Origin: Paenibacillus polysaccharolyticus
GTDB lineage: Bacteria; Bacillota; Bacilli; Paenibacillales; Paenibacillaceae
Direction of reading: 5' to 3'
Assembly (NCBI RefSeq): GCF_900102085.1
Contig: NZ_FMVM01000006.1
Location: 1 to 64,000, forward strand
Length of the DNA stretch: 64,000 nt
The notes beneath the pieces are model-generated. The model was not told the DNA's origin. It saw nothing but the letters and a program-made list of their open reading frames with translations, and searched no databases. Each line of letters begins with the position of its first letter. Position 1 is the first letter of the stretch. Position numbers and translations under genes: made by a program. This document shows, piece by piece, positions 9,247-34,837 of this stretch.

Positions 9247-9265
9247 CTAATTATGACAACGCACA
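9247..9265. repeat. Stray copy of the transposon end, inverted, outside the element
   Basis: CTAATTATGACAACGCACA is the exact reverse complement of the first 19 bases of the left end (9275-9293) and is identical to the last 19 bases of the right end (33489-33507). It lies outside the element, 9 bp from the left terminus, and points the opposite way. It is best read as a right-end remnant of an earlier insertion at the same site. Confidence 0.75.
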
Positions 9266-9269
9266 ACAT

Positions 9270-9274
9270 AACAT
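9270..9274. repeat. 5-bp target-site duplication, left copy (AACAT)
   Basis: AACAT directly precedes the TGTGCG terminus. The same five bases follow the right terminus at 33508-33512. A 5-bp duplication is the hallmark of Tn7-family transposition. Confidence 0.85.
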
Positions 9275-9457
9275 TGTGCGTTGTCATAATTAGTGAAAGA
9301 AATTGCTATGCATTTTCATAATTTATGAGAAAAATAACTGCTCGTTATCATAATTAGTGAAAAACCAACGGCATAGAGCCTCATAAATCAAAGAGAATTT
9401 TCACATTTCAGGAGCAAAACGAATTGTGAAAAAGTTGATTTCCACAATTAGTGAAAG
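9275..9457. repeat. Left transposon end with TnsB-type binding repeats
   Basis: After the TGTGCGTTG terminus, the motif TCATAATTAGTGAAA recurs: 9284-9298 and 9348-9362 match it exactly, while 9316-9332, 9381-9397 and 9441-9457 (TCCACAATTAGTGAAAG) are variants. Irregularly spaced repeats of about 15-20 bp of this kind are the TnsB sites of Tn7-family ends. Confidence 0.8.
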
Positions 9458-9915: not shown

Positions 9916-12900
9916 TTATAAATGATCTAAATCTTCTCTTAATTCAGCACTTATATCTTCTTGTTGAGCCTCTCTGTTATACCTGTTAGCAATGGAACGA
10001 AGTAGCGCAGTTGTTCTTGGCCAACGGACACCAGAAATATTCGCATAGTTATTGTATCTTTCAGCAAGTTTCCTTTCCTGTAACCCTCCCTCATTTACTT
10101 GTTTAGTTACGAATCCCCTTCTGTTGTATACACCACTAGTGAATGCTCTATCGATGCTAGTATTGCTAAATTGTTCTATTACATCTCGGACAGCTTCGTG
10201 AGGCCAACCGCCATCCTCCCCCATAACAGATGCACTTAAGATCTCTCCAATATACATAGCTCCATACTTACCTCGTCCTGAATCAAGAGTTGCTTGAAGC
10301 GATTTATTTACCCAATCAAGTAACTCCCGTTTATCAATACCATTATCTTCTCTTAAACCTGGTAATGTACTCCATGATTTCAAAAGATCCTCGCCTTGAG
10401 ATACACGTTGACGTTCTTCGAAGGTTGGTTCTTTCAACTCGCCACTTTCTGCGTTATACACCATTGATATTACTTCGGCAAAAAAAACAGGATTACGGGA
10501 TAATTCGCGATGAAGAAACTTGGGAGCATGATTATATCGGTCAAGTATAGGGAGGTATGCCCATTCCAAGGAAGCTATTTCTGTCTCCTCAATTTCTTGA
10601 CAATCCTCAAGTTTACTAAACAACTCAGAAATGTGGTAAGGTGACCAGTTAGATGGAAAATTGTCTTTTGTACTTGTAGTGAGTAATTTTGTCAAGACTT
10701 CAGCTATTTGCTTTGGTTTAGCAAAGGATTTTTGTAGAGCCAATAAGTCAATTGCTGAAAGAGTTAATTCATAGTGCAAATACTTATCAACGGCTATTTC
10801 CAAGTCTTCTACGTTTATAGAAATTGGTGAAACTAATGACCAGTACCTTCTTTCAACCTCGTCACCTAATTTTAAAAATAAATCCCAAGTGCTTCTATTA
10901 ACCGGTAGGAAAATTAAAATCTCTGCTTGTTTGTTCGTCCCCCAACCACTTGCGATTTTCAACTTTTCAATCACCCATCCACTCCCAAGACACCTAGTAC
11001 TACCAAATATATATCCACGAGCGAATTGAGCCAGTTTGTTATCAGGAGAGTCTAGATAGTTTTGAAGAAATTCATCCTCTTCCTTAACAGCCAACCGGAG
11101 TTCTCCAAGCGTTGAACCTAAATGATATGGTTGCTCAACATTTTCTAACAGATGCATTATTCCCTTAATTCCTTCTTCCTCATAGATCCTAGACAATGCG
11201 AATGTTCTTACTTCATGAAGTTTTCGCTCACGTTCTTCCCAATCCCCTTTACGCCCTTCTGGCAACTCAGGCCAATTACTAAAGAGCCAACTATAACGAG
11301 AGGATATTTCGAATGGTTCGAATTTTCTGAAGATTTCTTCTAATCGGTCTACTTCACTCTCATTAAGAGCCCAGTCTGCATCTGGAAAAGAACGATGTCT
11401 TGATAATTCTTTTCTGAGTGAGTTCCAAATGAGTGCCTTATCCTTAGAATTAATGTCTGTATCGCCTAATCTATCAAGTTTAATTAATACAATTTCCAAG
11501 TCTTCTAAAGGAAGCATTGCTAAAGATTGAATGATTTCATTCCAACGTTCACCAGAATGGCCTACTTCCGCCAATAAAATGGCCATAATTTCATGAGTCA
11601 CTCTGTCATATTCCGATCTTAGAACACCCCTGGTATGGTCCGGTGCCCACTCTCTCCATTTCGGCTTCGCTGTATTATGCGAAATCCCATGAAACTGTGG
11701 TAGCAACTCACATAGTAATTCCCACGTTACCTGTGGTTCCCTTTGTATAAGCATATTTAGAATTTGAAGACGTTGCTCAATGGAAGCGGTCGTTTGGGGA
11801 TTCCAAGTCAAAAATATTTCACGCAGACTATTTTTAGGTCTATTTTGTAGTTTCCCACCAGGGTCCATTCTACTTAGATTAGCTAATGATAATGAGACCC
11901 TCCCAAGGTATTCTGGGTTCCAAGCAAGAACCTCCAGTGCCCAAAGTAAACCAGTATGTGGAGAAGAACCAAATATAGTATCTTCTTGATCATTGAAAAG
12001 CTTTAAAATTACCTCTTCATTACTAATTTCTTCTTCAATTGCTTGAATAAACTGTTCTGGAGCTGCTTCAGCAAGAAGTGGTAGAACAGGGCATAATGTA
12101 GACCACACTTGCCAACGTCCCTTTGATATACTAAATAATTCATAGATTATATTAGAGGCATGATCTCTTAATGATAGATCAAGATTATCATTGCCCTCTT
12201 TCGCTCCCATGAATGCTAGTGAATCTGCTATATTTTTGATGAAAAGCCCTGAATAATTAGAGGTATAACCGCTCACCTGGGCCAACCACTGTTTTTTATA
12301 AGGCAGTTCAAACTTAGGGTCAGTTGTGCTAAGCACCTTAAGAGCTACAGATTTGAACTTTTCCAAATCTACTGGGGTAACATAGCGTATCAAGAGAGAC
12401 CATGCATCCTCCTTTGAAATTATGTACCATGCATGACCAATATGACGAATAGGAGGGTCGGATTCATTTGCCCATCTTACTAGTACTCCATTAAGTTCAT
12501 CATATGGACATTGCGCTAACTCACTAAGACTCTCTTTATCACCATCCCTTGTTTCGTTCCAAGCACCTGCTAATAAAAGTGGAATTAAGGGTCGCGCTTC
12601 ACCTGGCCGAGCCCATAAAGGCTGCCTAATTTCCGGACTAATTGCTGTTCGTCGACGAAATATAGTAAGTCCTCTTCGAGCTAAAAGTCCAAGGTCACGT
12701 GACTCGTGCTTATTTAATCCCATGTCGATCAGAATGGATGTCACTCTATCACGTGAAAGGCGTGGGATCTGTATAGCGCCTTCCGTAGTGCTATCTGAAC
12801 GTCCCAAAGGTATCATAACGTTATGCCCATTCCTAATTGCACGACTCAAACTTTCAGAGTCAAATGCAGGAATTAATATTAAATTATTTTGAGACGATGA

Positions 12901-13677
12901 AAGATAGGTCCAAGCTTCAATATTATTAACGACTATAGCTTTAGATAGATTGAAATCCTTATCTAATGGGGGAAGCAGACTAATTGAAGCAGCAAATACT
13001 GCTATAGCTTCGTCACGTGTTTCTGCTTGTATTTTTAGTGGAGAATTTGCACTTCGAAGCCACTTCGATATTTCCTCTTTAATATTTTCACGTCCTGCTA
13101 ACACCATTTCTGGTGAGATGGTTGGTTGGGTTTCTTCTGACCAATCTGTCCAATAACTACTTAAATCAATACAATTTTGGGGGTGTTTACCTAAAAGTAC
13201 AGATAGCCACACATGGACAGTAGGATTTTGGCTTAACCAAGTTTCGATATCATCTGCATCATAAACTAGTACATCCTTCCAAACCCCATCCTTCTTCCTT
13301 TCTATAGTCCATGTGTCTTTATCCCTCCATCGCCTCGGTGTGATAAAAATATATGTGGTTTCGTCGGGAGTCATATATAAAGGATTCTGACATCGTTTCA
13401 TATAATCGTCATCTGCTTTCCCTTTGACAGATCTGTTTACACCCATTTCCCACACTGTAGTACCTTTTGGGACGAAACTGTCACCTTCTTCGGCAACAGT
13501 AACCCCATCCCAACCTCCTAGGCTTACGCCTTCACCTGCAGCAAAACTAATTTTTTCAATACGGTCGCTACTTGAGAGTATTAAACTCCGAATAAGCTGA
13601 GGCAGTACAGACTGAGAGTCACGTCTATCTGCCCATTGGACTAGATCAGTTGCATCAACAAGTAATTTAGAGTGCAC
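9916..13677 (-). CDS. 1,253-residue putative defence protein: nuclease-like N-terminus plus alpha-helical repeats
   Basis: I recognise the pattern as a widespread uncharacterised large-protein family, not a named gene. Residues 1-170 contain GGWDG (Asp57), then VPKGTTVWEMG (Glu77), YMKR and FITPRRW, ending DADDIETWL. An Asp, a Glu and a following basic residue in this spacing suggest a PD-(D/E)XK-like nuclease core. Residues about 185-350 (VLAGRENIKEEI, then LKIQAETRDEAIAVFAA) look like a P-loop/STAND-type module that has lost the Walker A lysine. From about 380 to the end is a long helical array, probably HEAT/ARM-like. The gene is last before the left end, with its own start 177 bp past the recombinase-like gene. 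An antiviral sensor-nuclease role is inference. Confidence 0.6.
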   Translation of the reverse strand: MHSKLLVDATDLVQWADRRDSQSVLPQLIRSLILSSSDRIEKISFAAGEGVSLGGWDGVTVAEEGDSFVPKGTTVWEMGVNRSVKGKADDDYMKRCQNPLYMTPDETTYIFITPRRWRDKDTWTIERKKDGVWKDVLVYDADDIETWLSQNPTVHVWLSVLLGKHPQNCIDLSSYWTDWSEETQPTISPEMVLAGRENIKEEISKWLRSANSPLKIQAETRDEAIAVFAASISLLPPLDKDFNLSKAIVVNNIEAWTYLSSSQNNLILIPAFDSESLSRAIRNGHNVMIPLGRSDSTTEGAIQIPRLSRDRVTSILIDMGLNKHESRDLGLLARRGLTIFRRRTAISPEIRQPLWARPGEARPLIPLLLAGAWNETRDGDKESLSELAQCPYDELNGVLVRWANESDPPIRHIGHAWYIISKEDAWSLLIRYVTPVDLEKFKSVALKVLSTTDPKFELPYKKQWLAQVSGYTSNYSGLFIKNIADSLAFMGAKEGNDNLDLSLRDHASNIIYELFSISKGRWQVWSTLCPVLPLLAEAAPEQFIQAIEEEISNEEVILKLFNDQEDTIFGSSPHTGLLWALEVLAWNPEYLGRVSLSLANLSRMDPGGKLQNRPKNSLREIFLTWNPQTTASIEQRLQILNMLIQREPQVTWELLCELLPQFHGISHNTAKPKWREWAPDHTRGVLRSEYDRVTHEIMAILLAEVGHSGERWNEIIQSLAMLPLEDLEIVLIKLDRLGDTDINSKDKALIWNSLRKELSRHRSFPDADWALNESEVDRLEEIFRKFEPFEISSRYSWLFSNWPELPEGRKGDWEERERKLHEVRTFALSRIYEEEGIKGIMHLLENVEQPYHLGSTLGELRLAVKEEDEFLQNYLDSPDNKLAQFARGYIFGSTRCLGSGWVIEKLKIASGWGTNKQAEILIFLPVNRSTWDLFLKLGDEVERRYWSLVSPISINVEDLEIAVDKYLHYELTLSAIDLLALQKSFAKPKQIAEVLTKLLTTSTKDNFPSNWSPYHISELFSKLEDCQEIEETEIASLEWAYLPILDRYNHAPKFLHRELSRNPVFFAEVISMVYNAESGELKEPTFEERQRVSQGEDLLKSWSTLPGLREDNGIDKRELLDWVNKSLQATLDSGRGKYGAMYIGEILSASVMGEDGGWPHEAVRDVIEQFSNTSIDRAFTSGVYNRRGFVTKQVNEGGLQERKLAERYNNYANISGVRWPRTTALLRSIANRYNREAQQEDISAELREDLDHL

Positions 13678-13854: not shown

Positions 13855-14679
13855 TTATTTCAAGCTACTACTAGAATACAATTTCTCATCTAGCCCTATT
13901 TTTTTTGCATATTCTTTAACAATAAGTGCCACTGCTTTTCCAGTTAGTCTAGAATTAATAATATTTCCACCTTTATTAATTGGGCGAAATAATGCTCCTA
14001 AAAGTATCCCTGAAGTTACTAACCATTCCCTTAGAGCTGATACAGGACAGTTCTCTTTTTGCATCTTCAGAATGACATATTCATTTTTATCATAACCAAA
14101 ACGTTTAATTCCTCCACTTTGCCGTCTATAGCGAATTCTGACGTAATTCTCCTCATTGGAAAAATCAAGATCTTCTACGTTAATTGCGACTATTTCTTCT
14201 CTTAACATCTTGCTATGATATTTTAAAAGCAACAGAGCTTTATCACGAATTCCCTTCAAACTATCAGGTGTTGCGTCTAACATCGAATTGAAGTCTCGTT
14301 TATTCAACTTCTTTTTGCTTGTTCTATCCGTTTTCAGTGCTTCTTTTGATCCATTAATGATGGAATAAATCATTTTAGTATTTGGAACAAGATAGCCTTG
14401 TGCAAGATGAGCATATCTTATAGCAGCAATTTTTCGAATAACAGTACTCGATTTATACCCTTCCAAAATTAGAGTCGCTACATAAACAGCTAATTCTTCC
14501 TCCTTGGAAGGATAGGCGTTATACCCATGAACCATACACCACTCTTGATACATACGATTGTCAGTTTCGTAATATTTATTAGATGAGGCCGACAATTGAT
14601 AAATAACCTTCTTACCTTGTGCATCTGCAATCTGGTTAAGTATTTTATTCAGTTTGTCCATATCTAGATTTGATTTCAT
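13855..14679 (-). CDS. TnsF-like protein: tyrosine-recombinase fold cut off at the catalytic H-x-x-R box
   Basis: The 274-residue product has an N-terminal core-binding (SAM-like) domain (residues about 1-115) and the start of a tyrosine recombinase catalytic domain: RDKALLLLKYHSKMLREE with the first catalytic Arg160. The frame stops right at box II, where H-S-L-R would be expected, and reads YSSSSLK-stop (His to Ser271, Arg to Lys274). The second Arg, the His/Trp and the Tyr nucleophile are all missing. The ATG overlaps the tniQ stop (ATGA), so the two are translationally coupled. TnsF proteins of some Tn7-like elements are inactivated tyrosine recombinases used for target choice; this protein fits that role by structure and position. 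Confidence 0.75.
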   Translation of the reverse strand: MKSNLDMDKLNKILNQIADAQGKKVIYQLSASSNKYYETDNRMYQEWCMVHGYNAYPSKEEELAVYVATLILEGYKSSTVIRKIAAIRYAHLAQGYLVPNTKMIYSIINGSKEALKTDRTSKKKLNKRDFNSMLDATPDSLKGIRDKALLLLKYHSKMLREEIVAINVEDLDFSNEENYVRIRYRRQSGGIKRFGYDKNEYVILKMQKENCPVSALREWLVTSGILLGALFRPINKGGNIINSRLTGKAVALIVKEYAKKIGLDEKLYSSSSLK

Positions 14680-15650
14680 TTTTCTCCCTCCTCTACTCCT
14701 ACTTTACTCATCAAATGAGATGAAGCAATCGAAAATGATTTAGCGATTTTACCTAGAAAGTTAGAATCTTGTAGTTGCCCCTTTTGATTCTTTCCTATTA
14801 GATATAAATCAATCTCATCTCTGATCGAACTGAAACACTCTAATGCAAGTTCGTCTTTTAATTTGATTAGCCTGTCACTAAAAATAGATTTGTCCAACAT
14901 ACCAAGTAATTCATTTAATTTCCCATCTGACTCTGAGAGGGAAGAATACACTTTCTCTAAGGAGAGTCTCAGCGCCTTCTCATTAATGAAATAACTCTTT
15001 ATAAGAGAGGATTGACCCTTATTTTGATAATCTATATTCACCAATTTGAAAAGTAACTCTATGTCTTCATGATTTTGAAACGTCGATAGGATGTTTTTAT
15101 CGTTCCATCCCTTGTTATTTTCATCGAACATCGCCTGAAAGAAAACATTGTGATTCACCTTTGATTGTTCAATCATATCGCGTGGCAACTTGTCCAGTTC
15201 CATATCACATATACATATCCCGGGTCTAGGAGATAAGCATATAATTTTGCGTCCACATAGACACTTAGATTGCATCATACAATTATGAATATGACACGTA
15301 GTGTACCCTGTACATCTCCAGACACATCTATAATACATTTTCTCGTATAAACATTCAGGACAAACTTTTGTATGACACGATGTGAATAAAAATCTTCTTA
15401 GATATTTATTGCTTAGTACCCATTCTATTGTTTCATCATCTCTCCATAATCCTTTTGTAAATGAGGAGGACAACTTTTGTTTTAAGAATTGTTTTTGTGA
15501 GGGATATATCGTCGCTTGGATTCCATCCTTCAGTTTAAACAAAACATTTAGATCACTAACACTTGAATAACAGTTATCTTTTAGTATTCTACTGAGGTAA
15601 CTTTCGAGTGTTTCATTAGTCTCTGGATGAGGTAAGTGCAGTATGCGCAT
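14676..15650 (-). CDS. tniQ: TniQ-family target-selection protein (short form)
   Basis: The 324-residue product opens with the TniQ start LPHPETNETLESYLSRIL. It has a TniQ zinc-finger region: CHTKVCPECL, then WRCTGYTTCHIHNC and SKCLCG (about residues 105-145). It lacks the long C-terminal DNA-binding part of TnsD. It follows tnsC by 13 bp and overlaps the TnsF-like gene by 4 bp. In Tn7-family elements TniQ proteins link a site-recognition factor to the TnsC ATPase. Here the coupled TnsF-like protein is the natural candidate for that factor (inferred). Confidence 0.88.
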   Translation of the reverse strand: MRILHLPHPETNETLESYLSRILKDNCYSSVSDLNVLFKLKDGIQATIYPSQKQFLKQKLSSSFTKGLWRDDETIEWVLSNKYLRRFLFTSCHTKVCPECLYEKMYYRCVWRCTGYTTCHIHNCMMQSKCLCGRKIICLSPRPGICICDMELDKLPRDMIEQSKVNHNVFFQAMFDENNKGWNDKNILSTFQNHEDIELLFKLVNIDYQNKGQSSLIKSYFINEKALRLSLEKVYSSLSESDGKLNELLGMLDKSIFSDRLIKLKDELALECFSSIRDEIDLYLIGKNQKGQLQDSNFLGKIAKSFSIASSHLMSKVGVEEGEK

Positions 15651-15663: not shown

Positions 15664-16692
15664 TCATTGTTTCTTTCCCTTTTTTCCCTTCTTCCCCTTC
15701 TCTATGAGTTCTACTTTATATTTCGTTTCAAGATCATCTTCTCGCTTTATAACCGACTCAAGGTCAAACTCCTCGTTTGAAAATGGGTTGCTGACAAAAG
15801 GTCGACCTACTTGCTTTATTTTGGTGAGTGCTTTTGCGAGATCTATTTCACGGATCGAATCTGCTCCATTCAGAGCTGCACTCACCGTGGCTTCTTCCAA
15901 AAGCTTCATCACATAAAATGGGATCCCCTTTGATACATAATATATTTTGCTAGACAGATTTGGATCAGCTAAATTAGATGACTCTGAAAAAGGCAATTCA
16001 CTATCAATCTTCTTTAAAAACGTTCTGAAGTTTAAAATTTCTTCTACTGTTCCATAGGAGAATGGTAGGAGTTCTATTTTGTTGCAGTATCTACGATCTA
16101 ACTGTGGATTAGCTAAAAACACTTTAAAAGATTCTGTGATCCCGCTTAGCACTACCGCAATTCCTACCTCTTCTGTAAAAGTTTTAACCCAATTAGAAGC
16201 CGTTTTAAGGACATGGTCAGTATCTGCATCAATTAAATGTTGCAATTCATCAAGAATTATCATCTTAATTCCTAATTTTTTCACATAGTTATGAATGCGA
16301 CTTGTCAAAAGTGCTTCTGTTCCCTTGTAATGTAGAGGATCTCCCATTTCCTCTAAAATTTTCGATGCTAACGTGCGGTTTGTTGCTTTAGGCGGTACAA
16401 TAACGTATAGCACTGGAATATGCGTAAACTCTCGATTATCCTCTACAATGATTTCTTTTGGATACCTGTCCCTAAATTCTTTAGCCAATGTACTTTTCCC
16501 TACTCCAGTGCTTCCATAGACAAATGCCCCTTCAGGATTCACAGAGTCTTCAGAGAAATACAGCATCATCTCTAATTCATTTAAAATTTCCGAATATTGA
16601 GGGTGATGAATAATAATCTCTTTAGTACGTTCCTTCCTAATGTTTAACTCCCGCATGTCTGCACGCTGTCCCATTAAAGCTTTAAACATCAT
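15664..16692 (-). CDS. tnsC: TnsC: AAA+ transposition regulator
   Basis: The 342-residue AAA+ ATPase has Walker A GSTGVGKST (60-68) and Walker B IILDE (145-149), followed by LQHLID. The sensor region includes VLSGITESF. The C-terminus is a Lys/Gly run (EKGKKGKKGKK). TnsC assembles on target DNA with TniQ/TnsD and activates the TnsAB transposase; it also mediates target immunity. The start ATG (or the one 3 bp on) follows GAGGGGAAG. It lies 79 bp after tnsB and 13 bp before tniQ. Its length is short relative to Tn7 TnsC (about 550), as is common in Firmicute and TniB-like versions. Confidence 0.93.
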   Translation of the reverse strand: MMFKALMGQRADMRELNIRKERTKEIIIHHPQYSEILNELEMMLYFSEDSVNPEGAFVYGSTGVGKSTLAKEFRDRYPKEIIVEDNREFTHIPVLYVIVPPKATNRTLASKILEEMGDPLHYKGTEALLTSRIHNYVKKLGIKMIILDELQHLIDADTDHVLKTASNWVKTFTEEVGIAVVLSGITESFKVFLANPQLDRRYCNKIELLPFSYGTVEEILNFRTFLKKIDSELPFSESSNLADPNLSSKIYYVSKGIPFYVMKLLEEATVSAALNGADSIREIDLAKALTKIKQVGRPFVSNPFSNEEFDLESVIKREDDLETKYKVELIEKGKKGKKGKKQ

Positions 16693-16771: not shown

Positions 16772-18859
16772 TCACTGACTCTTGCTTCGTTTACCAATTC
16801 CCCATGTTCTGGCTACCGCCTCTAAATCTATTTCTTCGATGCATAACTCTCCAGGCTTAGGAGGTATAACTGAGTGGTTTTCCATTTCCTCACTATCTGT
16901 TTTCTCTGCGGTCACGCTTTTAGACGGATCATTATCGGAAATATCACTTATGATTGTATTTTCAGGTAACCTTAGATGTTTAGCAGAAACTCCCTTTGAA
17001 GCACTGATCACTAAGTGTTTAGACGCCTCCATTTTCGCCTTTTGCTTTTTAAGGTTACGATTTAACTTTTTATCTTCCTCTTGTATCTCTTCTATTTCAC
17101 GTATAGCTTTACCCACATGCGTATTATCAAAAGCATTCAACTCACTATGATGCTTGTTATCCCAATATTCGAGTACTTCAGGAAGGATGGGGTAATTCTT
17201 ATCAATATTTAATCGCCCCAAGCCTCCATCTTTAATATCAGCCTGAACATAGCGATTGTTCCCTTCGTCCCGAATGTAAATAGTTCTCATATCTGAACCA
17301 AAACGAACCATAACCTTTATACTTTTTCCGTTTTTATCTAAATCTCTTCTTAATTTATTAAGTTCTTCACTGTAAAAAAAATGCCCCATGAGTTTTATTC
17401 CTCTTGGGCTAATCACGCGAATTGCAGTTTTTGTAGAGAACAGCAATTCTAAATACTCCCGGCTATAAGGTATTGACGGATGAATATGATTCTCCAAGAG
17501 CCCTTGTTTCCACAATTGTTCTGGCACTCCCTGGATGTTCTCACCTCGATTAAAATTATTAGCAATTCTATCTACGATGGTGATATGAGCAATATGAAGT
17601 AAACTCGTCAAACTTACCGTTGCTTTTGCTTTGGAATCATACGCTCCCTTTTCTTGGGGATTAGAAAACATACTTCCTGACAGGCCCTGAAATGCCTTAT
17701 GGTTAATATTCCCCAGTGCTTGCTCCACCTTCCCTTTCTGATTACCAGCACCAATGCCTGTATATCTCACGCCTATACCTAAAAAACTACATATTTCTTC
17801 TAAGTTCCTTGATTCATTCACTTTTGCATTATCCAAAACAATAGTTTGTGGTACGCCATATGCTGACCATTCCTTTTGTACTCGAGGGTACAACTCTTTA
17901 AGATAAGTTTTAGGCAGAATACAATTTAACAGCAGTTGCAAAAAATCTCCTACATCAGGCTCCTTCTTCATGATGATATGGAGCCCCATAGGCTCATTCG
18001 TAGCTTGATCTATTCCAAACATCAGTACTGGACGAAACGCTTCATTATTTTCAAAATCTTTAATTAGACAATCAACCGGTGTCCAATCGATTTCAAGTTC
18101 TTCCAGTGGCAACGTTGCCCGTTGTGGGGTCTGAACTCCTTTATGTTTGAGCATGGCATTTGCATGTCCCATGAGTTCTTTATCTCGTAAAAGTGTATTC
18201 ACATGTTGCTTGTAAATTCGTCGGAAAGTAGATTCAGATGACAACTTGAGTTTATCTTTCTCTTCCCTCATCATATTTATATCTTCAACGATACTTTTCA
18301 AATCCATGTACTGATCACGAACAGTGAATGTCTCTGATTTTTTTTCATATTTATTTATAATTTTATATATTTCTGAGAGTTCATCATCATCGATACGTTT
18401 ACTTTTCGGCCCTGTTCTTTTTGGAATTAGATCTATTTTATTATTTCTCTTGGACCATAATTTAGCCCAACGATAGATTGAGGCTTCAGATAACTTTTGA
18501 ATTCGCTTTAATTCAGATGGAAAATTCTCAATATAAGATTTAAAATCAGAATTTTTCAGTTCTCCTTTGATATAGGGTTCAATCGCTTGATAACGTATGT
18601 TCATGATTTTGAGTTCACTCTCTGTATAATCTTCCGGAACATAATCTATGACTAGTTGTTCACTAGTATATTCGGAAAATATCAGTCTTGATTTAGGATC
18701 TTTAGAGTTGTAGGCAACCAATATTTCCTGCATCGGCAGCAGCTCTTTTTCACCAATCGTTATATTTAAAACTTCAACATCACTTTCTCTTTGTGCGAGA
18801 TACTCATACTCTGTTGATCCAATACGAAAACGAGTACCATACGTAAAATGAGTAAACAT
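16772..18859 (-). CDS. tnsB: TnsB: DDE transposase
   Basis: The 695-residue product has an N-terminal DNA-binding region with helix-turn-helix segments (KLSEASIYRWAKLW; SSESTFRRIYK), an RNase-H-fold integrase core (about 250-430) and a Mu-type beta-barrel after about 480. The catalytic triad is readable: Asp258 (ELEIDWT), Asp343 (IVLDNAK) and Glu379 (QKGKVEQ). TnsB binds the repeated end sites and makes the 3' strand cuts and joins. It is 6 bp from tnsA. All catalytic residues are intact, so the element may still be active. Confidence 0.95.
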   Translation of the reverse strand: MFTHFTYGTRFRIGSTEYEYLAQRESDVEVLNITIGEKELLPMQEILVAYNSKDPKSRLIFSEYTSEQLVIDYVPEDYTESELKIMNIRYQAIEPYIKGELKNSDFKSYIENFPSELKRIQKLSEASIYRWAKLWSKRNNKIDLIPKRTGPKSKRIDDDELSEIYKIINKYEKKSETFTVRDQYMDLKSIVEDINMMREEKDKLKLSSESTFRRIYKQHVNTLLRDKELMGHANAMLKHKGVQTPQRATLPLEELEIDWTPVDCLIKDFENNEAFRPVLMFGIDQATNEPMGLHIIMKKEPDVGDFLQLLLNCILPKTYLKELYPRVQKEWSAYGVPQTIVLDNAKVNESRNLEEICSFLGIGVRYTGIGAGNQKGKVEQALGNINHKAFQGLSGSMFSNPQEKGAYDSKAKATVSLTSLLHIAHITIVDRIANNFNRGENIQGVPEQLWKQGLLENHIHPSIPYSREYLELLFSTKTAIRVISPRGIKLMGHFFYSEELNKLRRDLDKNGKSIKVMVRFGSDMRTIYIRDEGNNRYVQADIKDGGLGRLNIDKNYPILPEVLEYWDNKHHSELNAFDNTHVGKAIREIEEIQEEDKKLNRNLKKQKAKMEASKHLVISASKGVSAKHLRLPENTIISDISDNDPSKSVTAEKTDSEEMENHSVIPPKPGELCIEEIDLEAVARTWGIGKRSKSQ

Positions 18860-18865: not shown

Positions 18866-19492
18866 TCACCTCAACAGGGAGTAATCATTTATTATTTCAT
18901 GAATTAAATCGACTTTAATATATTGCTCGTATACCAAGTAGTGTAAATGAAAATAGAAAGAGGTATTCTCTAGTTGATTGCATCGTTCTCTGAAGGAAAT
19001 AAGTTCCATCTCATCGCAACTATTAAATTCGTCTAACAGATATTTGATAATCTCAGAATCTACCTCTTGAAGTTTAACTCGCCTTAATATGGATAAATTT
19101 TGTTGTAGCTCACCAGGTCTAATTTCTCTCTCGGTGAACACTTGATACAACCATCCTTTCTCTTCACAATACTTCCTACCTACTTCGAACTTGATTTGAT
19201 TTTTTGGTTCAGTTAAGAAATCAAATGGCTTGACTTCAATAATTAGTATCTGTCCATTTGTAAGGATCACTTTGAAATCAGGAAAATATCGAAGCTTCTT
19301 TCCGTTTGACATGTAATGTATACAAAGTGGTTGATGATAAATTTCTCGCACATCCACATCAAAATCAGCCAAACGTATATAATCACGCTCTAAAAAGCTA
19401 TCCCAGTGTACCATCAAACCAGAACTAAAGAATGGCTCTTTTCCTCTATATCCTTTAATCTTGGCCTTAATATTCCTAGCCGGAATATACAA
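18866..19492 (-). CDS. tnsA: TnsA: endonuclease subunit of the transposase
   Basis: The 208-residue product has the TnsA nuclease core. Glu35 (WDSFLERDY), Asp72 (RYFPDFKV) and Glu86-Lys88 (IIEVKP) match the type II restriction-like active site that cuts the 5' strands, which makes Tn7 move by cut and paste. The start is TTG at 19492 with AAAGGAGG 9 nt upstream; no ATG fits. The C-terminal domain is shorter than in Tn7 TnsA (273 residues). It is the first gene after a terminator that follows tnsD. Confidence 0.93.
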   Translation of the reverse strand: MYIPARNIKAKIKGYRGKEPFFSSGLMVHWDSFLERDYIRLADFDVDVREIYHQPLCIHYMSNGKKLRYFPDFKVILTNGQILIIEVKPFDFLTEPKNQIKFEVGRKYCEEKGWLYQVFTEREIRPGELQQNLSILRRVKLQEVDSEIIKYLLDEFNSCDEMELISFRERCNQLENTSFYFHLHYLVYEQYIKVDLIHEIINDYSLLR

Positions 19493-19530: not shown

Positions 19531-19567
19531 AAAAAAACAGCCAAGGTTGTTAGACTTTCCCCGGCTG
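19531..19567 (-). terminator. Terminator between tnsD and tnsA
   Basis: The minus strand reads CAGCC...GGCTG with inner GG/CC pairs, then TTTTTTT. It overlaps the last codons of tnsD and lies 39 bp before the TTG start of tnsA, so read-through from the tnsD unit would be limited. Confidence 0.7.
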
Positions 19568-21328
19568 CATGTCTCTCGATGTATGAATATTTTTTTCAAT
19601 TCGATCTGTAATGTACCTTGTGATCTCTGGAGCCCAACTACACAAATAAGATTGTTTGACACCAAGATGTTCATAAATATCCTTTGACTTAAGAATTAGA
19701 GTTTTCCTCACAAAGTCTTGGCTTTCAATTAAACGATCTATCTCAGCGATTAATTGTTCTTTACGCTTTTCTAATCTCTTAGTCTTCTGTAAAATCTTCG
19801 CTTTTTCGTACTCCCTATAACCATTTTGCCAGTGCTGGAGTGTAGAGCGAGATATTCCCATATGCTTAGCTAATTTGGTTAGAGTTATCGTCTCATCCTT
19901 ATCCAAAAGTCTCTTGGTGAAAAGAGTCAATTGGGGCAGTTGTGTAAGATAAGCTGATCGTGTGGTAGCTCCTCGCTTCTTCAGATGACAAGTTCTTAAT
20001 ATTTCAAGATGATATCTATATACCAAATAATGATTTACCGATTTCCAGCAATCCCAGCTTTTAATCTGATTTAGCTTGGTGCCTTTTTTTATTGCTTGTA
20101 TAAAACGCTCTAATAAGTCCTCTTCAATCATTGGAGGAGAGTCTTTTACTAACCTTGTTTGAAAATAAGCCCATGCTTTACTAGATATCGAACTTGCTTG
20201 ACCTGGTTTGTGTTCTAACACCTGTTTCAGTTCACATGACCTTATCCATTCAAAGGCTTCTATAAATCCATCCCTTTCAAGCTGATTGAAGTGTTCGTCA
20301 AAGTAATACGTACACCCACATCCATTGCAAAATAAGTAGTTCTTTTGAACAGAACCATTTTTGAGCTTTTTATATTGCGTGCCAGTCCGTTTTAATTCCT
20401 TGTTAAAATTATAGTATTTGCACCAAGATGCTAAGCACACTGCATCGTTGGTGTGCCCCTTAGAGCTGGATAACAAATTCAAACTAAATTGATCAGGGAT
20501 AACAAACGATAGAAAGGACTGCATGTCTATTTCACACTTGTACAATATGTCTAACAGTTTCTTAAGATGAAAGCTCCTTCGATAGTTTAACGTACCACGA
20601 GCCAATTGCAATAACTCTTGATGATTCACTTTATATTCTATACAAGCCTCTCTTAAGACCCGTTGCTTACTGGTGCTCTCAATCCAATAAGCAACTCTAT
20701 GTGCAATATCATTGGGAGTATAATACGTAGTACTCGGTTTCAATAAAAACTCCCATTGTGAAGTCATCCAATCCTGCTGAAGACTTGTTTCCTTATTTTT
20801 TATAATATGGCTTTTTGCTTCACCAAGATACATATGACATAAAGGGCATTGACAATTTGATTGTATCCTATTTACTTCAATAGTGCCACCACAGTAGCCA
20901 CATGTCCCATTTAATTCACAATGATGTTTTGTGCATACGTTAATACCCTCTAATCTCCAAGTTAACCGAACATAATTATCCTTGGATATACAAATTGGAC
21001 AATAGTAAAGTATTCTCCTCGTAAATCCTTTCATGAAACGGGAATAGGATTCTCTTTCACTATGACTAAACTTTGAAAAAGCGTAGTAATATGTCATTTG
21101 TAATAATCGCTCTTCCGTTTGCTGAGTGCGTTCAGCAAGAGCTTTAATATTAAGTGTCACATGAGGGTAAAGATCAATAAGATAAAATCGATCAGTTCTC
21201 AATGTGTATCTTGTATTTTTCACATCCATGGCCAGATCAATCAAAGAAACCTCGTTCGCTTTAGCAGTTCTACTCAAGTAACTCAACAAAGACTCATTGT
21301 GATTTGGCTTTAATCGTATAAGATACAC
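19550..21328 (-). CDS. tnsD: TnsD/TniQ-family site-specific target selector (long form)
   Basis: The 592-residue product begins with the TniQ signature (LKPNHNESLLSYLSRTAK). A zinc-finger cluster (about 130-190: YYCPICI, then CTKHHCELNGTCGYCGG and CQCPLC) follows, with a second cysteine motif in the middle (FCNGCGCTYYF, about 330). The C-terminal part has a helix-turn-helix (LTKLAKHMGISRSTLQHWQNG, about 495) and a basic helical tail. Long TnsD proteins bind a conserved chromosomal sequence, usually the 3' end of a gene, and recruit TnsC. Insertion 17 bp past an ABC permease stop fits this. It is transcribed upstream of, and apart from, tnsABC. Confidence 0.88.
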   Translation of the reverse strand: MYLIRLKPNHNESLLSYLSRTAKANEVSLIDLAMDVKNTRYTLRTDRFYLIDLYPHVTLNIKALAERTQQTEERLLQMTYYYAFSKFSHSERESYSRFMKGFTRRILYYCPICISKDNYVRLTWRLEGINVCTKHHCELNGTCGYCGGTIEVNRIQSNCQCPLCHMYLGEAKSHIIKNKETSLQQDWMTSQWEFLLKPSTTYYTPNDIAHRVAYWIESTSKQRVLREACIEYKVNHQELLQLARGTLNYRRSFHLKKLLDILYKCEIDMQSFLSFVIPDQFSLNLLSSSKGHTNDAVCLASWCKYYNFNKELKRTGTQYKKLKNGSVQKNYLFCNGCGCTYYFDEHFNQLERDGFIEAFEWIRSCELKQVLEHKPGQASSISSKAWAYFQTRLVKDSPPMIEEDLLERFIQAIKKGTKLNQIKSWDCWKSVNHYLVYRYHLEILRTCHLKKRGATTRSAYLTQLPQLTLFTKRLLDKDETITLTKLAKHMGISRSTLQHWQNGYREYEKAKILQKTKRLEKRKEQLIAEIDRLIESQDFVRKTLILKSKDIYEHLGVKQSYLCSWAPEITRYITDRIEKNIHTSRDMQPGKV

Positions 21329-21347: not shown

Positions 21348-22337
21348 TCATTTCGCAGGAATGACTTCAGAAATTAAATCTTGGGCAAGCATTCGAGAGC
21401 CACTTATCCCTTTAAGATACTTTAGTGGACCTTCTGCAGACCATTCTGTATTCTTCATTTTTTTCACACTCTTCTCTATGAAGGCGTAATCCATCTTGCC
21501 CTTTTGTCGGTTAGTAGCTTCCTTCAGAATCTCTGCACCTACAATTGCCAAGGCATTGAGGCAAACAATATGCGTTAAACGATATTCTTTATAACTAAGC
21601 CATTCTGTATTGAATTGTTCTTTTATAGCATTAAAATACATCAGGCTCCACGTTAGTTTAGTTTCTTTATTTACATGAGTTAGAGCTTCTGACTTTGTCA
21701 ATAATTCAATCACTTTATACAGATTCTGGAGGGTGACATGACGACCAGAACTGCGCTTTCCAGTTAGTGTACCTATAAAGTGAAAGGGACTATCTCCACG
21801 CGTTATCAGTTGCGTTGCGATCCAGCTATATTCATCCGTATTTCGATGAAGATACTTGCTTAGTGAAGTTCCTATCCCTTTCGCCATTGTATTGATAATG
21901 TCGAACAAATGGACCTCTTCGTCTTCATCTAGGTAGTGAAAAGCCAAGAATGGAACATTGATTTCAGAGTTCGTATCCTGAGTGTATCGTTTTATTCCGC
22001 CCACTCGATGCTGGCCATCCATTATTGATGCTTTCCCCTTACAAATCAGCCTGCCTAAGTGTGGTCTAGCTTTGTCATATGCGCTGAACTCCCAATGAGA
22101 TTCAGCATTAAGCATGATTGGAGCAAAGAGTGCATCCTCTCCCTTCGAAAGATACAAGGCAAAGTCATTACACCTTTTACTATCTACCGGTCGTTGATAC
22201 CCTTTTCCTGAAGGATGATCAAAAGGTTTTACATACGTGATTTGTAATACAGAAGTAGCAGAAACATTGCCTAAATAGGAAACTTTACCTCGCATTTTAG
22301 ATTGCAGTACATTCTCAATCACATGTTGTTGTGTCAT
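21348..22337 (-). CDS. DGQHR-domain protein (DndB-like)
   Basis: From the ATG at 22337 (AAGGAG 10 nt upstream) the product is 329 residues. It carries the signature MDGQHRVGG (residues about 106-114) that defines the DGQHR/DndB-like superfamily. The family includes DndB, the regulator of phosphorothioate DNA modification, and many uncharacterised island proteins; it is related in fold to ParB/sulfiredoxin-like domains. No dnd genes are nearby. It is 19 bp upstream of tnsD, in the same direction, and divergent from an XRE regulator, so it belongs to the transposition control region. Its job there is unknown. Confidence 0.8.
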   Translation of the reverse strand: MTQQHVIENVLQSKMRGKVSYLGNVSATSVLQITYVKPFDHPSGKGYQRPVDSKRCNDFALYLSKGEDALFAPIMLNAESHWEFSAYDKARPHLGRLICKGKASIMDGQHRVGGIKRYTQDTNSEINVPFLAFHYLDEDEEVHLFDIINTMAKGIGTSLSKYLHRNTDEYSWIATQLITRGDSPFHFIGTLTGKRSSGRHVTLQNLYKVIELLTKSEALTHVNKETKLTWSLMYFNAIKEQFNTEWLSYKEYRLTHIVCLNALAIVGAEILKEATNRQKGKMDYAFIEKSVKKMKNTEWSAEGPLKYLKGISGSRMLAQDLISEVIPAK

Positions 22338-22472
22338 AGATGTTATTCTCCTTATTGTCATATGCTATTTTTATTTTAGGATATATAACACCTATTTTCA
22401 AATGGAATTAAGTAGTTAAACATTCTTCATTCCCATAGCCAAGTTACCTACTCTTGAATAGAGGTGGATTAA

Positions 22473-22817
22473 ATGTCCAACATATTCTTAAGCGTAGGGA
22501 AAAAAATTCGCTTATATCGAAAGGCGAGCAAATTGACCCAGGAAGAATTAGGAGAACAACTACAAATAGATTATTCGTATCTGGGAAGAATTGAACGTGG
22601 GGAAGTTAATATCACATTAGAAACTTTAAGTAAGATAGCTAATGCTCTCCATATTGCACCTTCGCAACTGTTAGAGGATGACAGGTATTATTCGAAGGAT
22701 AAAACTAAAATCGAGATTCTAGAGAAAATCGATACAGCCCTATTCTCCTTATCTAGTAAAGAACTTGAAGTTCTCCATCGTTTAATAAAAGATGCGCTTA
22801 TGTTCAAAAAATTATAA
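22473..22817 (+). CDS. XRE-family regulator of the transposon
   Basis: The 114-residue product has a Cro/CI-type helix-turn-helix (LTQEELGEQLQIDYSYLGRIERGE, residues about 19-43), a linker and a C-terminal helix (LSSKELEVLHRLIKDAL). It is transcribed away from the DGQHR-tnsD unit, and the 110-bp region between probably holds both promoters. It most likely represses the transposition genes. It is the only plus-strand gene I recognise in the element. Confidence 0.88.
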   Translation: MSNIFLSVGKKIRLYRKASKLTQEELGEQLQIDYSYLGRIERGEVNITLETLSKIANALHIAPSQLLEDDRYYSKDKTKIEILEKIDTALFSLSSKELEVLHRLIKDALMFKKL

Positions 22818-24395: not shown

Positions 24396-26231
24396 TCACG
24401 TTTGAAGATACTGCAATTTATACGTTAATTGATTTTCAATTTTAAAAGTAATCTCATTTTTTTCAATACCATTTAATTTAATCTTGTTATTTTCGTACCA
24501 ATATTCGGAAGGGTATTGATGTACCAGTAAATCATTTTTAAATATCATTAAATTTATCGGTTCAGATGTAATTTTAATAAATCTTAGTACAAGTATACTA
24601 GTTGGTATTTCCCACAATTCAGAGAATAGAGAAAGCAAATCTAAATGAATTTTGGTTATCGTTTTTAAAGTTCTTTCTTTTTCTGATCCTTCTGGTATTA
24701 AAATTAGACCTGCAAACTGCTCAATCTCTATATTTATCTTATCAACATGATTGACGACAGAATCATTTATCTCTGAATCAAGCATTAGAAAACGTGCTAT
24801 CTCCCGAGCTAATACAACTTTTTCATGATAAGTCCCATTTTGCTCAACATTTAAAACTATAACTCCCCTATTTGCAGTTTTATTTTTATAAGTAAAGCCC
24901 TCTATGTTAATAGGTAACTCTAAATAAATAACTACGATTCCTAACTCATAACAAAGTTCAAAAGGTTCTTTCATTGCATTAACATCAACCTTTTTACGAA
25001 GTACATCAGTTACTGTCTCTATCGATACCCCAATAAAATCTTTTAATAAGCCATTACTTTCGTAAATGTAAGCTTCAATTAGCTCCATCAAAGTCTCTTG
25101 AGTCATTTCATCAAAAAGCATAGATAAGAAACTACTATATGCATTACGAATAAAGTACTGTTTATATTCAAAGATATAACTTTGATTGGAAGACATCTTT
25201 TTAACTAATGAATAAAAATAATGACCTAATGGATTAGGATTGACCATTGAAGCCTTTATAAAGGTATTTAAATACCTTTTGTACAGTTCGTTTTTGTTAT
25301 GCACTTTGAATAAGAGTATCGTTAAAAAATACTTAGTAGAAATTTTTAACTTAGTATTAATAAGTGCATCTGATATGGTATGAAAAAAAGTGGGAGGAAA
25401 TTCTTTGAAGTCAATTTCCGCACAAATATATTCATTCAAACTTTTTATTGAGGATTTGGTCCATTTACTATCTATCAAATCTTCAACTACCTCAAACGAA
25501 TAGTTAGAATTCTCAGTTGACATTTTCTTCATGACACTTTTTATTTTATTAAAGGATTCAGGAAAATTCTCATCATATTTTTCTTCTATATCTTCTATAT
25601 CATCATTAAATATAGAAAGCTGATGAACTTTTTCACTTTCTAGTGCGACCTCTTGTTTTTTTGTAAGAGTGAATTCAATTGGTAGGATTTCTTCACCATA
25701 CAACAGAAAATTAGGTATATTAGGAGGCATTAGTACAAACTTATCATCTTTTAAAGATACTAACTCCTCTCTAAGTTCCATCAAAAGTCTACCCAGACAA
25801 TTTACCCCTCTTAGCATATCTCCTTCGGGTTTAGCACCCCAAAAAGCATCTTTATTTGATTCTTCAACTATTGGCAGTCTCCCAGTTTCTAAGAGAAGTG
25901 AGCTAAACTTAGCCCAATTTTGAAACAACTTAACTCTTAAACACCATCTCATTATTTGAACTCGAACCTTGTCCCAGTCTTGCCTAGAATTTTTCCTATG
26001 AGGCTTGGATCTCATTTTTCCTGTCATAGGACTTCTTTCACGTATAATCTGCCTTTGGACATCCGGCATATGAGGAAATCTACTTGCTTGATAAAGTGCT
26101 TCAGAAGTAAGTATCTTATGTTCGCCTATAAAAATAGGGTAGCCTCCAGCCATATTGGAGAGACCACCAAACAACTCGTTTGTTTTTTTAAACACTATTG
26201 CATTACGACGTGAATATAGCCTCTCTTTCAT
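24396..26231 (-). CDS. NADAR-domain protein with an inactive ImmA/IrrE-like C-terminal domain
   Basis: The product has 611 residues. Residues 13-155 form a NADAR (YbiA-like) domain: FGGLSNMAGGYPIFIG, SEALYQASRF, then VEESNKDAFWGA and GVNCLGRLLMELRE. NADAR enzymes act on ADP-ribose-type N-glycosidic bonds; some remove ADP-ribose from guanine. A mostly helical middle region (200-400) follows. Residues about 425-560 resemble ImmA/IrrE peptidases, but the HExxH zinc motif reads REIAR (476-480), so both histidines are lost; IEIEQFAGLILIP matches the usual E-x-x-x-x-FA-x-x-LLMP stretch. The start follows GGGGGGA. It sits downstream of the PRTase-CE-like gene, across a hairpin. Confidence 0.78.
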   Translation of the reverse strand: MKERLYSRRNAIVFKKTNELFGGLSNMAGGYPIFIGEHKILTSEALYQASRFPHMPDVQRQIIRERSPMTGKMRSKPHRKNSRQDWDKVRVQIMRWCLRVKLFQNWAKFSSLLLETGRLPIVEESNKDAFWGAKPEGDMLRGVNCLGRLLMELREELVSLKDDKFVLMPPNIPNFLLYGEEILPIEFTLTKKQEVALESEKVHQLSIFNDDIEDIEEKYDENFPESFNKIKSVMKKMSTENSNYSFEVVEDLIDSKWTKSSIKSLNEYICAEIDFKEFPPTFFHTISDALINTKLKISTKYFLTILLFKVHNKNELYKRYLNTFIKASMVNPNPLGHYFYSLVKKMSSNQSYIFEYKQYFIRNAYSSFLSMLFDEMTQETLMELIEAYIYESNGLLKDFIGVSIETVTDVLRKKVDVNAMKEPFELCYELGIVVIYLELPINIEGFTYKNKTANRGVIVLNVEQNGTYHEKVVLAREIARFLMLDSEINDSVVNHVDKINIEIEQFAGLILIPEGSEKERTLKTITKIHLDLLSLFSELWEIPTSILVLRFIKITSEPINLMIFKNDLLVHQYPSEYWYENNKIKLNGIEKNEITFKIENQLTYKLQYLQT

Positions 26232-26275
26232 AAAATCCCCCCATATATGTACTCATATTATTCTATACAAAAAAA

Positions 26276-26298
26276 CAAAAAAAAGGAACTCGCGTTCC
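26276..26298 (-). terminator. Short terminator or attenuator between the PRTase-CE-like and NADAR genes
   Basis: GGAAC and GTTCC (26285-26289/26294-26298) with a 4-nt loop are followed on the minus strand by eight T and a second T-run. It is a compact hairpin, so partial read-through into the NADAR gene is possible. Confidence 0.6.
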
Positions 26299-33437: not shown

Positions 33438-33507
33438 TTTCTCACTAATTATGAAAAAGTTTTCTCATAAATTTTGAAAACATTCTCACTAATTATGACA
33501 ACGCACA
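33438..33507. repeat. Right transposon end with three TnsB-type repeats
   Basis: TTTCTCACTAATTATGA (33438-33454), TTTCTCATAAATTTTGA (33461-33477) and ATTCTCACTAATTATGA (33482-33498) are spaced 23 and 21 bp apart. The last runs into the CAACGCACA terminus. They are the inverted equivalent of the left-end sites. Three close repeats here and five spread ones at the other end recall the asymmetric ends of Tn7. Confidence 0.85.
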
Positions 33508-33512
33508 AACAT
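33508..33512. repeat. 5-bp target-site duplication, right copy (AACAT)
   Basis: Identical to 9270-9274 and directly adjacent to the ACA terminus. It lies 17 bp from the stop codon of the ABC permease gene (33530-33532 on the minus strand). Confidence 0.85.
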
Positions 33513-33529: not shown

Positions 33530-34837
33530 TTAAATCTTGTACGCCTTCATCGCTTTAAACAACTCTTTGAAGGTTGGACGTTTGCCGTACATCAGTACGC
33601 CCGTGCGATAGATTTTAGCTGCGAGCCAGCCAAAGACCAGAATGGATACAGCCAGAATGGCAAGAGACGTCAGAATCTCCCAGGTCGGTGCAACGCCTGC
33701 CCCAATCCGTACAAGAATCGCTGTTGGTGATGTGAACGGAATGAAGCTTGCAACTTTGAGCAATAAAATATTCGGTGCAGAGATGCTGAAGAGTGCAATA
33801 TAGAATGATACCAGGGACAGCATCGTGATTGGCAGAACTGCCTGCCCCAGCTCTTCCGTACGGCTGACCATTGAACCAACGGCTGCGAACAGCACTGCGT
33901 ACAGGAAGTAACCCAGGATATAGAAGATCAATCCATATACAATTACAGCGATATTAATGTCGCTAACACTCAAATTGAAATCATCCAGTACTGCGCGGTT
34001 GTGCGGTAATAGAATATTCCCCGCAATAACTGCGCCGAAGATTCCGATCTGTAACATACCTACCATGAAGATACCGATGATTTTACCAAACATCTGACTG
34101 AGCGGAGATACACTCGTGATCAGAATCTCCATAATGCGCGAGCTTTTCTCAGCTGTGATCTCGGAAGCAATCATATTACCTGTCATCATCGTAGATGTGA
34201 ACAGCAAGATGATTAACAAGTACACAACGATATAGTTGATCGGACTCATTGATTTTTCCGCACCAGCTCCAGCCTCACCATCATCAGCGCTTAGACTCTC
34301 TGCAGTCAGCTTCACAGGTGTTGTAATCAACGCCTTCTGTTCAGGTGTCAGTACATCCTTGACTACGACATCCAGCTTCACACTTTGCAGAGCAGATTCA
34401 ATAGCCGTAGTGATCTGAGGTGAAATGTCATCTGTGGAATATAAAACAGGCTTCGGGAACTCCTGTCCTGCTACCGTTTCAAGTTTCAAATAACCATCAA
34501 TCAGGCCTGCCTTCGCATCTTCCTGTAATGCAGCTTCGTCCTTATCCCCACTCACGATGAAACGATACGCCTGATTTCCCTGAGCAGACGAGAAGTCTTC
34601 CAGCTTCTGTGCTACATCCTGCTGTTCCGTTGTCAGAAGACCGATGTTGACAGGATTTTTACCGGAAGCTCCGCCGCCAATTGGTCCGCCATTGAATAAA
34701 GTAATGAAATATGGAACATTGAGTCCAATCGAAATTAAAAGTGCAAGTACAATGGTAGTAACCATAAATGACTTCGTTTTTACTTTGTTTTTGAACGTGA
34801 AACCTGTAATTGTGCCCATTTTATTCATTCGACTCAC
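33530..34837 (-). CDS. ABC-2 type transporter permease (NatB/YhaP-like)
   Basis: The 435-residue product has one N-terminal helix, a large extracellular domain (about 55-200; LKLETVAGQEFPKPVLYSTD) and five or six C-terminal helices with ITAEKSSRIMEILITSVSP, the conserved cytosolic coupling segment of NatB-type ABC-2 permeases. Its start overlaps the end of the ATPase gene by 17 bp. With the ATPase it probably exports sodium, an antibiotic or another small compound. The transposon lies 17 bp past its stop, leaving the reading frame whole. Confidence 0.88.
   Translation of the reverse strand: MSRMNKMGTITGFTFKNKVKTKSFMVTTIVLALLISIGLNVPYFITLFNGGPIGGGASGKNPVNIGLLTTEQQDVAQKLEDFSSAQGNQAYRFIVSGDKDEAALQEDAKAGLIDGYLKLETVAGQEFPKPVLYSTDDISPQITTAIESALQSVKLDVVVKDVLTPEQKALITTPVKLTAESLSADDGEAGAGAEKSMSPINYIVVYLLIILLFTSTMMTGNMIASEITAEKSSRIMEILITSVSPLSQMFGKIIGIFMVGMLQIGIFGAVIAGNILLPHNRAVLDDFNLSVSDINIAVIVYGLIFYILGYFLYAVLFAAVGSMVSRTEELGQAVLPITMLSLVSFYIALFSISAPNILLLKVASFIPFTSPTAILVRIGAGVAPTWEILTSLAILAVSILVFGWLAAKIYRTGVLMYGKRPTFKELFKAMKAYKI

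Follow-up and report, generated by a model that had tools for sequence, protein, structure and literature searches.

In a Tn7-like transposon of Paenibacillus polysaccharolyticus, a gene for a protein that resembles tyrosine recombinases (hereafter YR) ends where the catalytic box of these enzymes should lie, which raises the question of what such a protein does in a transposition operon. The window in which this locus was studied is a stretch of 64,000 nucleotides (assembly GCF_900102085.1, contig NZ_FMVM01000006.1, positions 1 to 64,000). As judged from the sequence, YR is a real and selected but dead Cre-like protein paired with TniQ, and it most likely reads DNA for a second targeting pathway. 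A Tn7-like transposon in which a short TniQ is paired with a disarmed tyrosine recombinase was known in Tn6022, and the element described here appears to be another case, of independent origin.

The transposon and its operon

The element extends from 9275 to 33507 (24,233 bp) and is flanked on both sides by AACAT, a 5-bp target-site duplication (9270..9274 on the right and 33508..33512 on the left). Its right end (9275..9456, TGTGCGTTGTCATAATTAGTGAAA) carries four repeats that resemble TnsB sites, and repeated motifs of the same kind were found in the left end (33440..33507). The attachment site is the 3′ end of an ABC-2-type permease gene (33530..34837, minus strand), which was named from its sequence and from the ABC ATPase gene behind it; 17 bp separate the duplication from the stop codon. 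The operon lies on the minus strand and begins with a DndB/DGQHR-domain protein (21348..22361), which is followed by TnsD1, a TniQ-family protein with C-terminal HTH matches (19550..21328; 592 aa), the TnsA endonuclease (18866..19492; 208 aa), the TnsB transposase (16772..18859; 695 aa), which has a weak Mu-transposase C-terminal match and a syntenic homologue in the related genome G123, TnsC of the TniB/AAA type (15664..16692; 342 aa), the short TniQ (14676..15650; 324 aa; PF06527 at 1.5e-9) and YR (13855..14679; 274 aa). An XRE-type regulator is encoded divergently at the operon head (22473..22817, plus strand). The element is thus Tn7-like in its genes (TnsA, TnsB, TnsC and TniQ-family proteins) as well as in its 5-bp duplication, the multiple TnsB-type sites at its ends and its att site. 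The structure model of TniQ had a pLDDT of 38.

The cargo at 27903-31692 and 24396-27392 includes genes that resemble a Lamassu defence system (LmuA with a Cap4 nuclease domain, LmuB and LmuC) as well as genes for NADAR/M78 and PRTase-CE proteins. A further cargo gene between YR and the right end (9916-13677) encodes a 1253-aa protein that matched neither Pfam nor NCBIfam at E 0.01 and had only a weak PADLOC match. Immediately beyond the right end, 19 bp (9248-9266) repeat the sequence of the left end, facing away from the element, perhaps as a scar left by another element that had used this attachment site before.

The YR gene and its product

The initial annotation had described a recombinase-like gene that overlaps tniQ by four bases and ends YSSSSLK-stop at the HxxR box with both residues changed, and both observations were confirmed. 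The overlap between 13855-14679 and 14676-15650 (both on the minus strand) is ATGA, the YR start is preceded by the Shine-Dalgarno sequence GGAGG, and the C-terminus, ...GLDEKLYSSSSLK*, aligns with the GHSLR (HxxR) box of the relatives with H replaced by S and R by K. The protein, which contains two cysteines in total and is encoded once in the genome, matched PF00589 over residues 125-265 (E 4.1e-5; 23.9 bits against the Pfam cut-off of 27.1) and the NCBIfam XerD model at 3e-10, far under the cut-off of that model.

The structure prediction that had been proposed gave an AlphaFold model of the 274 residues with a mean pLDDT of 90, which was Cre-like. Its input was a 58-row alignment of the window copy, the copy from G123 and 56 relatives from viral contigs, which were picked from 80 loci with near-copies and partial ones omitted. 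The YR profile matched Cre at E 2.3e-36, and the model superposed on Cre with a Z of 19.2 and an rmsd of 4.8 over 251 residues. In this superposition, residue 14 aligned with Cre 19 and the last residue, 274, with Cre 292, which is the second catalytic arginine, in agreement with the profile alignment. A single helical region (residues 7-114) precedes the catalytic fold and aligns as a whole with that of Cre. Based on these profile and structure alignments, YR is Cre-like in fold and ancestry, and its sequence ends at the position of the second catalytic arginine.

Loss of the catalytic set

Pairs of a short TniQ and YR were found in three elements, those of the window, of G123 and of G433, a genome of another family. 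The G123 YR is 41% identical to that of the window and is cut off after SSSSL; it ends YSSSSLRNRVKTHKKS*, with a nine-residue tail and an IS3-type remnant just downstream. The G433 YR has its complete length (325 aa) and is disarmed.

Among unlinked relatives, the catalytic set is strikingly constant. Arg1, Lys, His-II, Arg2 and Tyr were invariant in all 56 viral relatives, with 54 His and two Trp at the His-III position, and the same five residues were present in 119 of the 119 distinct relatives, His-III being found in 117. Of these, 71 came from viral contigs, and Bacilli genomes and plasmid records supplied the other 48. Not counted were the three TniQ-YR copies, G005, G020, the XerC-like outgroup rows L017 and L018, L056 and five viral rows (the second ORF of L194, the partial L213, L227 and L230, and L228, which is degraded and has ASSLR). 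In the order Arg1, Lys, His-II, Arg2, His-III and Tyr, the window copy has L, R, S, K, nothing and nothing, so that none of the six is kept (R159 to L at Arg1 and K186 to R at Lys). G123 has N, R, S, R, nothing and nothing (one of six); the residue in its His-III column is an alignment artefact owing to its tail and was counted as absent. With R, N, Q, R, Y and Y, G433 keeps three of six and has lost Lys, His-II and His-III. The change of the His/Arg box that had been reported was correct, but the losses had been undercounted, as Arg1 and Lys are gone too. With no catalytic position left, YR cannot recombine DNA, as had been claimed.

The nucleophile half is indeed missing. A search for the C-terminus with a 49-column profile detected no remnant in six frames over 780 bp downstream of the window YR (best score −1.5 bits, against 91 and 62 bits for the controls). 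To the question of whether homologues also end before the tyrosine, the answer is divided: the G123 copy does, but that of G433 is full length and the tyrosine is present in all 119 relatives. Sister copies at full length with an intact set would have made the window copy a simple truncation; instead, G123 ends at the box and G433 has lost three of the six residues.

The part of the protein that precedes the catalytic fold fared differently. Of eight core-binding-domain positions that are conserved in at least 95% of the relatives, six are kept in the window copy and all eight in both G123 and G433; over the whole protein, the window YR keeps 17 of 31 family-invariant positions. From these counts, the cutting part was lost and the DNA-binding part largely kept. 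Several altered positions of the window YR lie in what we take, from Cre, to be the recognition helices, which speaks for a changed specificity. Degenerate copies also exist without tns genes, as shown by the viral L228 and by L056 (G511; 286 aa), which ends YSGDSLKSGYVKSNL and had no tns match in the 33 kb around it.

Relatives and the linkage to TniQ

YR matches were found in 18 of 394 genomes of the family, 18 of 392 in a draw from the order and 39 of 398 in a draw from the class, where the sets overlap and the E-value limits differ between them. At the matches listed, the YR open frames were shorter than 314 aa only in the window, G123, G511 and two fragments from G674. A TniQ like that of the window lay beside YR at three of 150 YR loci, namely those of the window, G123 and G433; the 150 loci came from the family, order, class and viral scans with flanks of up to 2 kb, and 22 places matched in the class search had no locus and fall outside this number. 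When the TniQ profile was run over the 392 order genomes, the same three were obtained at E < 1e-150 and the next best match at 1.7e-20. Among 104 genomes of the family of G433, only G433 reached that level, and YR was beside TniQ at none of the 19 other loci fetched. A scan of genome contigs with the TnsC alignment, in which the query consisted of two short N-terminal patterns, gave one locus, the G123 record, and with so short a query the lack of others carries no weight; the TnsC search returned no phage record. Viral contigs scanned with a two-row YR alignment and with the TniQ alignment yielded no relative, and TniQ compared with 72,556 plasmid records gave no close relative and two remote matches.

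Weaker TniQ-family matches were found near YR, on the opposite strand, in G005 and G020. At these loci (L023, 6.6-12.1 kb, and L024, 8.2-12.5 kb), the strand opposite the TniQ-family genes holds a Cre-like YR of full length and an XRE gene; this YR lacks the catalytic Lys with the other five positions present. In L030 (1534-1770; G080) and L029 (G079), a short remnant that resembles the C-terminus of TniQ adjoins an unrelated conserved gene, perhaps as the trace of a lost element of the window's group. Additionally, L135 and L136 in G433 (4023-4045 kb) hold two distinct TnsABC sets in a stretch of about 20 kb, as would be expected of a pair of neighbouring Tn7-like elements.

In a 70-row tree, the YR of the window, G123 and G433 formed one clade (99/91) with long branches inside the Paenibacillales recombinases. 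Without the window, G123 and G433 stayed together (100/92), with a warning by the program of long branches meeting, and without G123, the window and G433 were united in 37% of 200 bootstrap trees. On sequence grounds, the single origin of the three copies would therefore rest partly on G123; the shared partner TniQ lends it separate support.

In all three pairs, YR stands directly behind the short TniQ on the same strand, and the pair follows TnsC in two elements and precedes TnsA in the third. This arrangement bears on the possibility that the dead YR regulates transcription in the element, which we consider unlikely. Structural matches of the YR model included, according to the entry descriptions, the prophage master regulator MrpR and the phage repressor SroF. 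MrpR is a protein with a tyrosine-recombinase fold without recombinase function and the master repressor of prophage SPbeta (PMC10516654). As described there, it has lost recombination and works by binding DNA, which by analogy would be expected of YR, whose gene lies in an operon; however, MrpR represses transcription in a prophage. The element already has an XRE regulator, and a regulator need not be coupled to TniQ or move with it relative to tnsABC, as YR does. Moreover, no inverted repeat with 12-bp arms and a spacer of 7-10 lay within 3 kb of the YR genes of the window or G433, and the one such repeat in G123, 2.1 kb downstream, has AT-rich ends and is terminator-like.

The attachment site and two proposed selectors

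The 3′ end of the permease gene is a hot spot that holds elements in the window, G123, G114 and G117. The G123 element (115942-148959) is flanked by the duplication CTCAC, which by subtraction likewise lies 17 bp from the permease stop. A clear 5-bp duplication was seen in the window and in G123, the flanks in G117 are T runs, and the right end in G114 was not found. The hot spot also bears end-like sites, with no tns genes, in G145 (two of them 2 kb apart), G094 and G115. For the G433 element, no permease homologue was recognised by eye among the ORFs of the surrounding 35 kb, and the other end and a target duplication were not found.

XRE, DndB, TnsD1, TnsA, TnsB and TnsC are common to all four elements at the permease site. 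The DndB/DGQHR gene, which adjoins TnsD1 in four of four, sits in each between XRE and TnsD1, and among the seven operon genes compared it shows the highest conservation (80% identity between the window and G123). The TnsD1 proteins are 37-43% identical among the four elements, and the TnsD of G433 is 21-28% identical to them. Instead of the TniQ-YR pair, G117 has a second TniQ-family protein of 569 aa behind TnsC and G114 one of 536 aa before TnsA. This comparison of four elements shows that TnsD1 goes with the permease site and that TniQ-YR (324 and 274 aa) replaces a long second TnsD. From this association, we infer that TnsD1 chooses the permease site. Since TnsD1 is thus the better candidate for the current site, YR would serve a second pathway, and TniQ with the dead YR would constitute an independent second selector. 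Such a two-pathway lifestyle is described as near-universal among Tn7-like elements (PMC11406308). No insertion could be attributed to TniQ-YR among the three pairs, two of which are at the TnsD1 site.

The assignment could also be reversed, with TniQ-YR having chosen the permease site and TnsD1 serving the other pathway, in so far as both elements with a truncated YR share one site. We regard this as improbable, given that the elements of G114 and G117 carry TnsD1 at that site and no YR in the stretches read; the family search gave no YR match in G117, and its sole YR match in G114 was full length, 33% identical and located on a different contig.

Age and selection

Between the window and G123, YR is 41% identical, TniQ 35%, TnsD1 40% and TnsC 70%. 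The differences at codon positions 1, 2 and 3 were 0.47/0.32/0.67 for YR, similar to 0.49/0.35/0.63 for TniQ and 0.48/0.37/0.63 for TnsD1; no dN/dS is given because synonymous sites were saturated. The YR frame is open across 270 aligned codons, and its third positions differ twice as often as the second, a codon-position bias that shows continued selection and agrees with the earlier statement that YR is kept in the tns operon. The copies of the window and G123 share the SSSSL ending, the K-to-R change and the lost His. Because the losses of His and Lys are common to both, most of their divergence probably arose in an already dead protein, and since G123 is likewise truncated and G433 disarmed, the inactivation is old.

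A sequencing error or a fresh truncation of the window YR was ruled out: there is no remnant downstream, the sister element has the SSSSL end, which by itself speaks against a sequencing slip, and a full-length cousin is disarmed. The IS3-type remnant beside the G123 YR was rejected as the cause of the shared truncation because the window copy has none; an insertion sequence may have had a role in the exact end of the G123 copy with its nine-residue tail, and the two copies may have been truncated separately.

It is quite improbable that YR is a decaying, functionless remnant of a recombinase captured as cargo. Its truncation, the loss of all catalytic residues, the long branches in the tree, the IS3-type remnant directly downstream of the G123 copy and the degenerate unlinked relatives L056 and L228 would be expected of such a remnant. 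However, they stand against a frame that has stayed open at 41% identity with the above bias, a Shine-Dalgarno sequence and a 4-bp overlap with tniQ, core-binding-domain positions that were kept, and losses of His and Lys that are common to the window and G123.

Comparison with known systems

In Tn6022-like elements, TnsF is an inactivated recombinase fold encoded behind a short TniQ; it was found bound to TniQ and was needed for transposition (Faure et al. 2023, PMC10293859). According to the same paper, it targets comM and is built of a zinc-finger part of about 199 residues, two CB domains and some 70 pCAT residues. The initial annotation had called YR a TnsF-like selector. As an analogy this stands: in both cases a Tn7-like element encodes, immediately after a short TniQ and overlapping it, an inactivated protein of the tyrosine-recombinase fold with a partial catalytic domain. 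However, YR has neither the N-terminal zinc-finger region nor the second CB domain, and it was rejected as a TnsF orthologue on these grounds. It retains about 150 residues of the catalytic domain and ends at HxxR, a later cut than the one described for TnsF. Moreover, the window element is accompanied by a separate TnsD1 and sits 3′ of an ABC permease gene rather than in comM, a difference that bears on this insertion only. As a yardstick we used the TnsF of pAB3 (Tn6021), which was identified by gene order, has 476 aa and overlaps its tniQ by 8 bp. There was no sequence match of YR to this one TnsF (best blastp E 4.1; hhalign probability 0.2%), which is a weak test as TnsF was a single sequence and not a profile; the TniQ of the window matched that of pAB3 with a probability of 91%. 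YR should not be filed as TnsF, and it is TnsF-like only by working analogy.

With P1 Cre and the Cre-like recombinases Nigri and Panto (PMC4957104), YR shares the fold and the sequence profile, and some of its unlinked relatives have lox-like sites. In contrast to them, it has none of the R-K-H-R-H/W-Y set, nothing past the residue aligned with Cre 292 and no lox-like site of its own. A precedent for a second target of TniQ-YR is offered by the 'res site hunters' of the Tn5053 family, in which transposition towards plasmid resolution sites depends on TniQ (PMC11406308). As described in that source, these elements have a single TniQ and no TnsA, and no recombinase-fold partner of TniQ is named there, whereas the window element has TnsA and a built-in dead recombinase. 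In searches of one open-licence library, judged on listings and the beginnings of abstracts, no description of a Cre-like partner of TniQ was seen, and the main text of PMC10293859 mentions neither 'Firmicutes' nor 'Paenibacillus'.

Proposed role

We propose, with a probability of about 70%, that YR is a domesticated, dead, Cre-like protein that supplies the sequence-specific DNA binding in a target selector of two proteins, TniQ and YR, which serves a second pathway. A target would be bound, and perhaps bent, by the core-binding domain together with what is left of the catalytic domain. In Cre, the helices after the truncation point build the recombining tetramer; by analogy, a protein that has lost its catalytic residues and ends at the HxxR box would be unable to cleave and would lack the helices for tetramer building. 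The co-translated short TniQ would contact YR and bridge it to TnsC, which would bring in TnsA and TnsB. In this scheme, the 3′ end of the ABC-permease gene would be the target of TnsD1, and TniQ-YR would lead the element elsewhere, most plausibly to mobile DNA.

The stages of such a conversion appear to be preserved, from unlinked relatives with an intact set through the full-length, disarmed copy of G433 to the truncated copies of the window and G123, so it can be asked how an enzyme turns into a subunit for targeting and whether TniQ has taken on DNA-binding partners time and again. As Cre is among the best-studied DNA-binding enzymes, a Cre-fold partner of TniQ would be a practical protein-only system for the study of targeted insertion.

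lox-like sites and the possible second target

Some unlinked YR relatives have an upstream inverted repeat with arms of 12-13 bp and a 9-bp spacer (consensus TAACTTCCGATA-N9-TATCGGAAGTTA), which we take to resemble loxP. A 12-bp-arm repeat of any sequence was found within 800 bp upstream of 18 of 48 Bacilli relatives and 7 of 75 viral ones, compared with 5 of 615 shuffles; one of the 18 Bacilli repeats is a run of N and ten are, by eye, of the consensus type. One repeat was found on an Alicyclobacillus plasmid, where it precedes the gene of a relative; ParA and phage terminase genes are on the same plasmid. The window YR gene has no 12-bp-arm repeat within 3 kb, and in a lox-like scan of the window the highest score was 19, which is chance compared with 17-19 in ten shuffles. 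At up to three mismatches, lox-like sites were absent from the window's own genome (G000) and from G123 and G433; among five genomes scanned, only G114 had one. That YR is an active cointegrate resolvase or a recombinase for plasmid-dimer resolution, as its relatives with an intact set and, in some cases, lox-like sites might suggest, was rejected with near certainty because it has no catalytic residue, no nucleophile and no lox-like site above chance nearby, and with TnsA present cointegrates are not expected as the main product.

As no lox-like site stands out from chance near the TniQ-YR genes and none was found in their genomes at up to three mismatches, the YR gene was probably taken without its site. 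Its source was probably a plasmid-type Cre-like recombinase, recruited separately from TnsF. More tentatively, and with doubt outweighing belief, the element might be a self-sufficient 'lox-site hunter', in which a dead Cre-like protein captured from plasmids or phage-plasmids reads incoming lox-like sites and TniQ directs insertion there. If so, it would be a built-in version of the res-site hunting of Tn5053, with TnsD1 keeping the element in a safe chromosomal site and the dead Cre moving it between cells. The lox-like modules themselves (arms TAACTTCCGATA, 9-bp spacer) lie upstream of YR in L003, L005, L019, L040, L008, L047, L057, L059, L071, L033 and L249. They occur in Paenibacillales and their relatives, some on plasmid or phage-plasmid-like records, and are candidates for new recombinase/site pairs.
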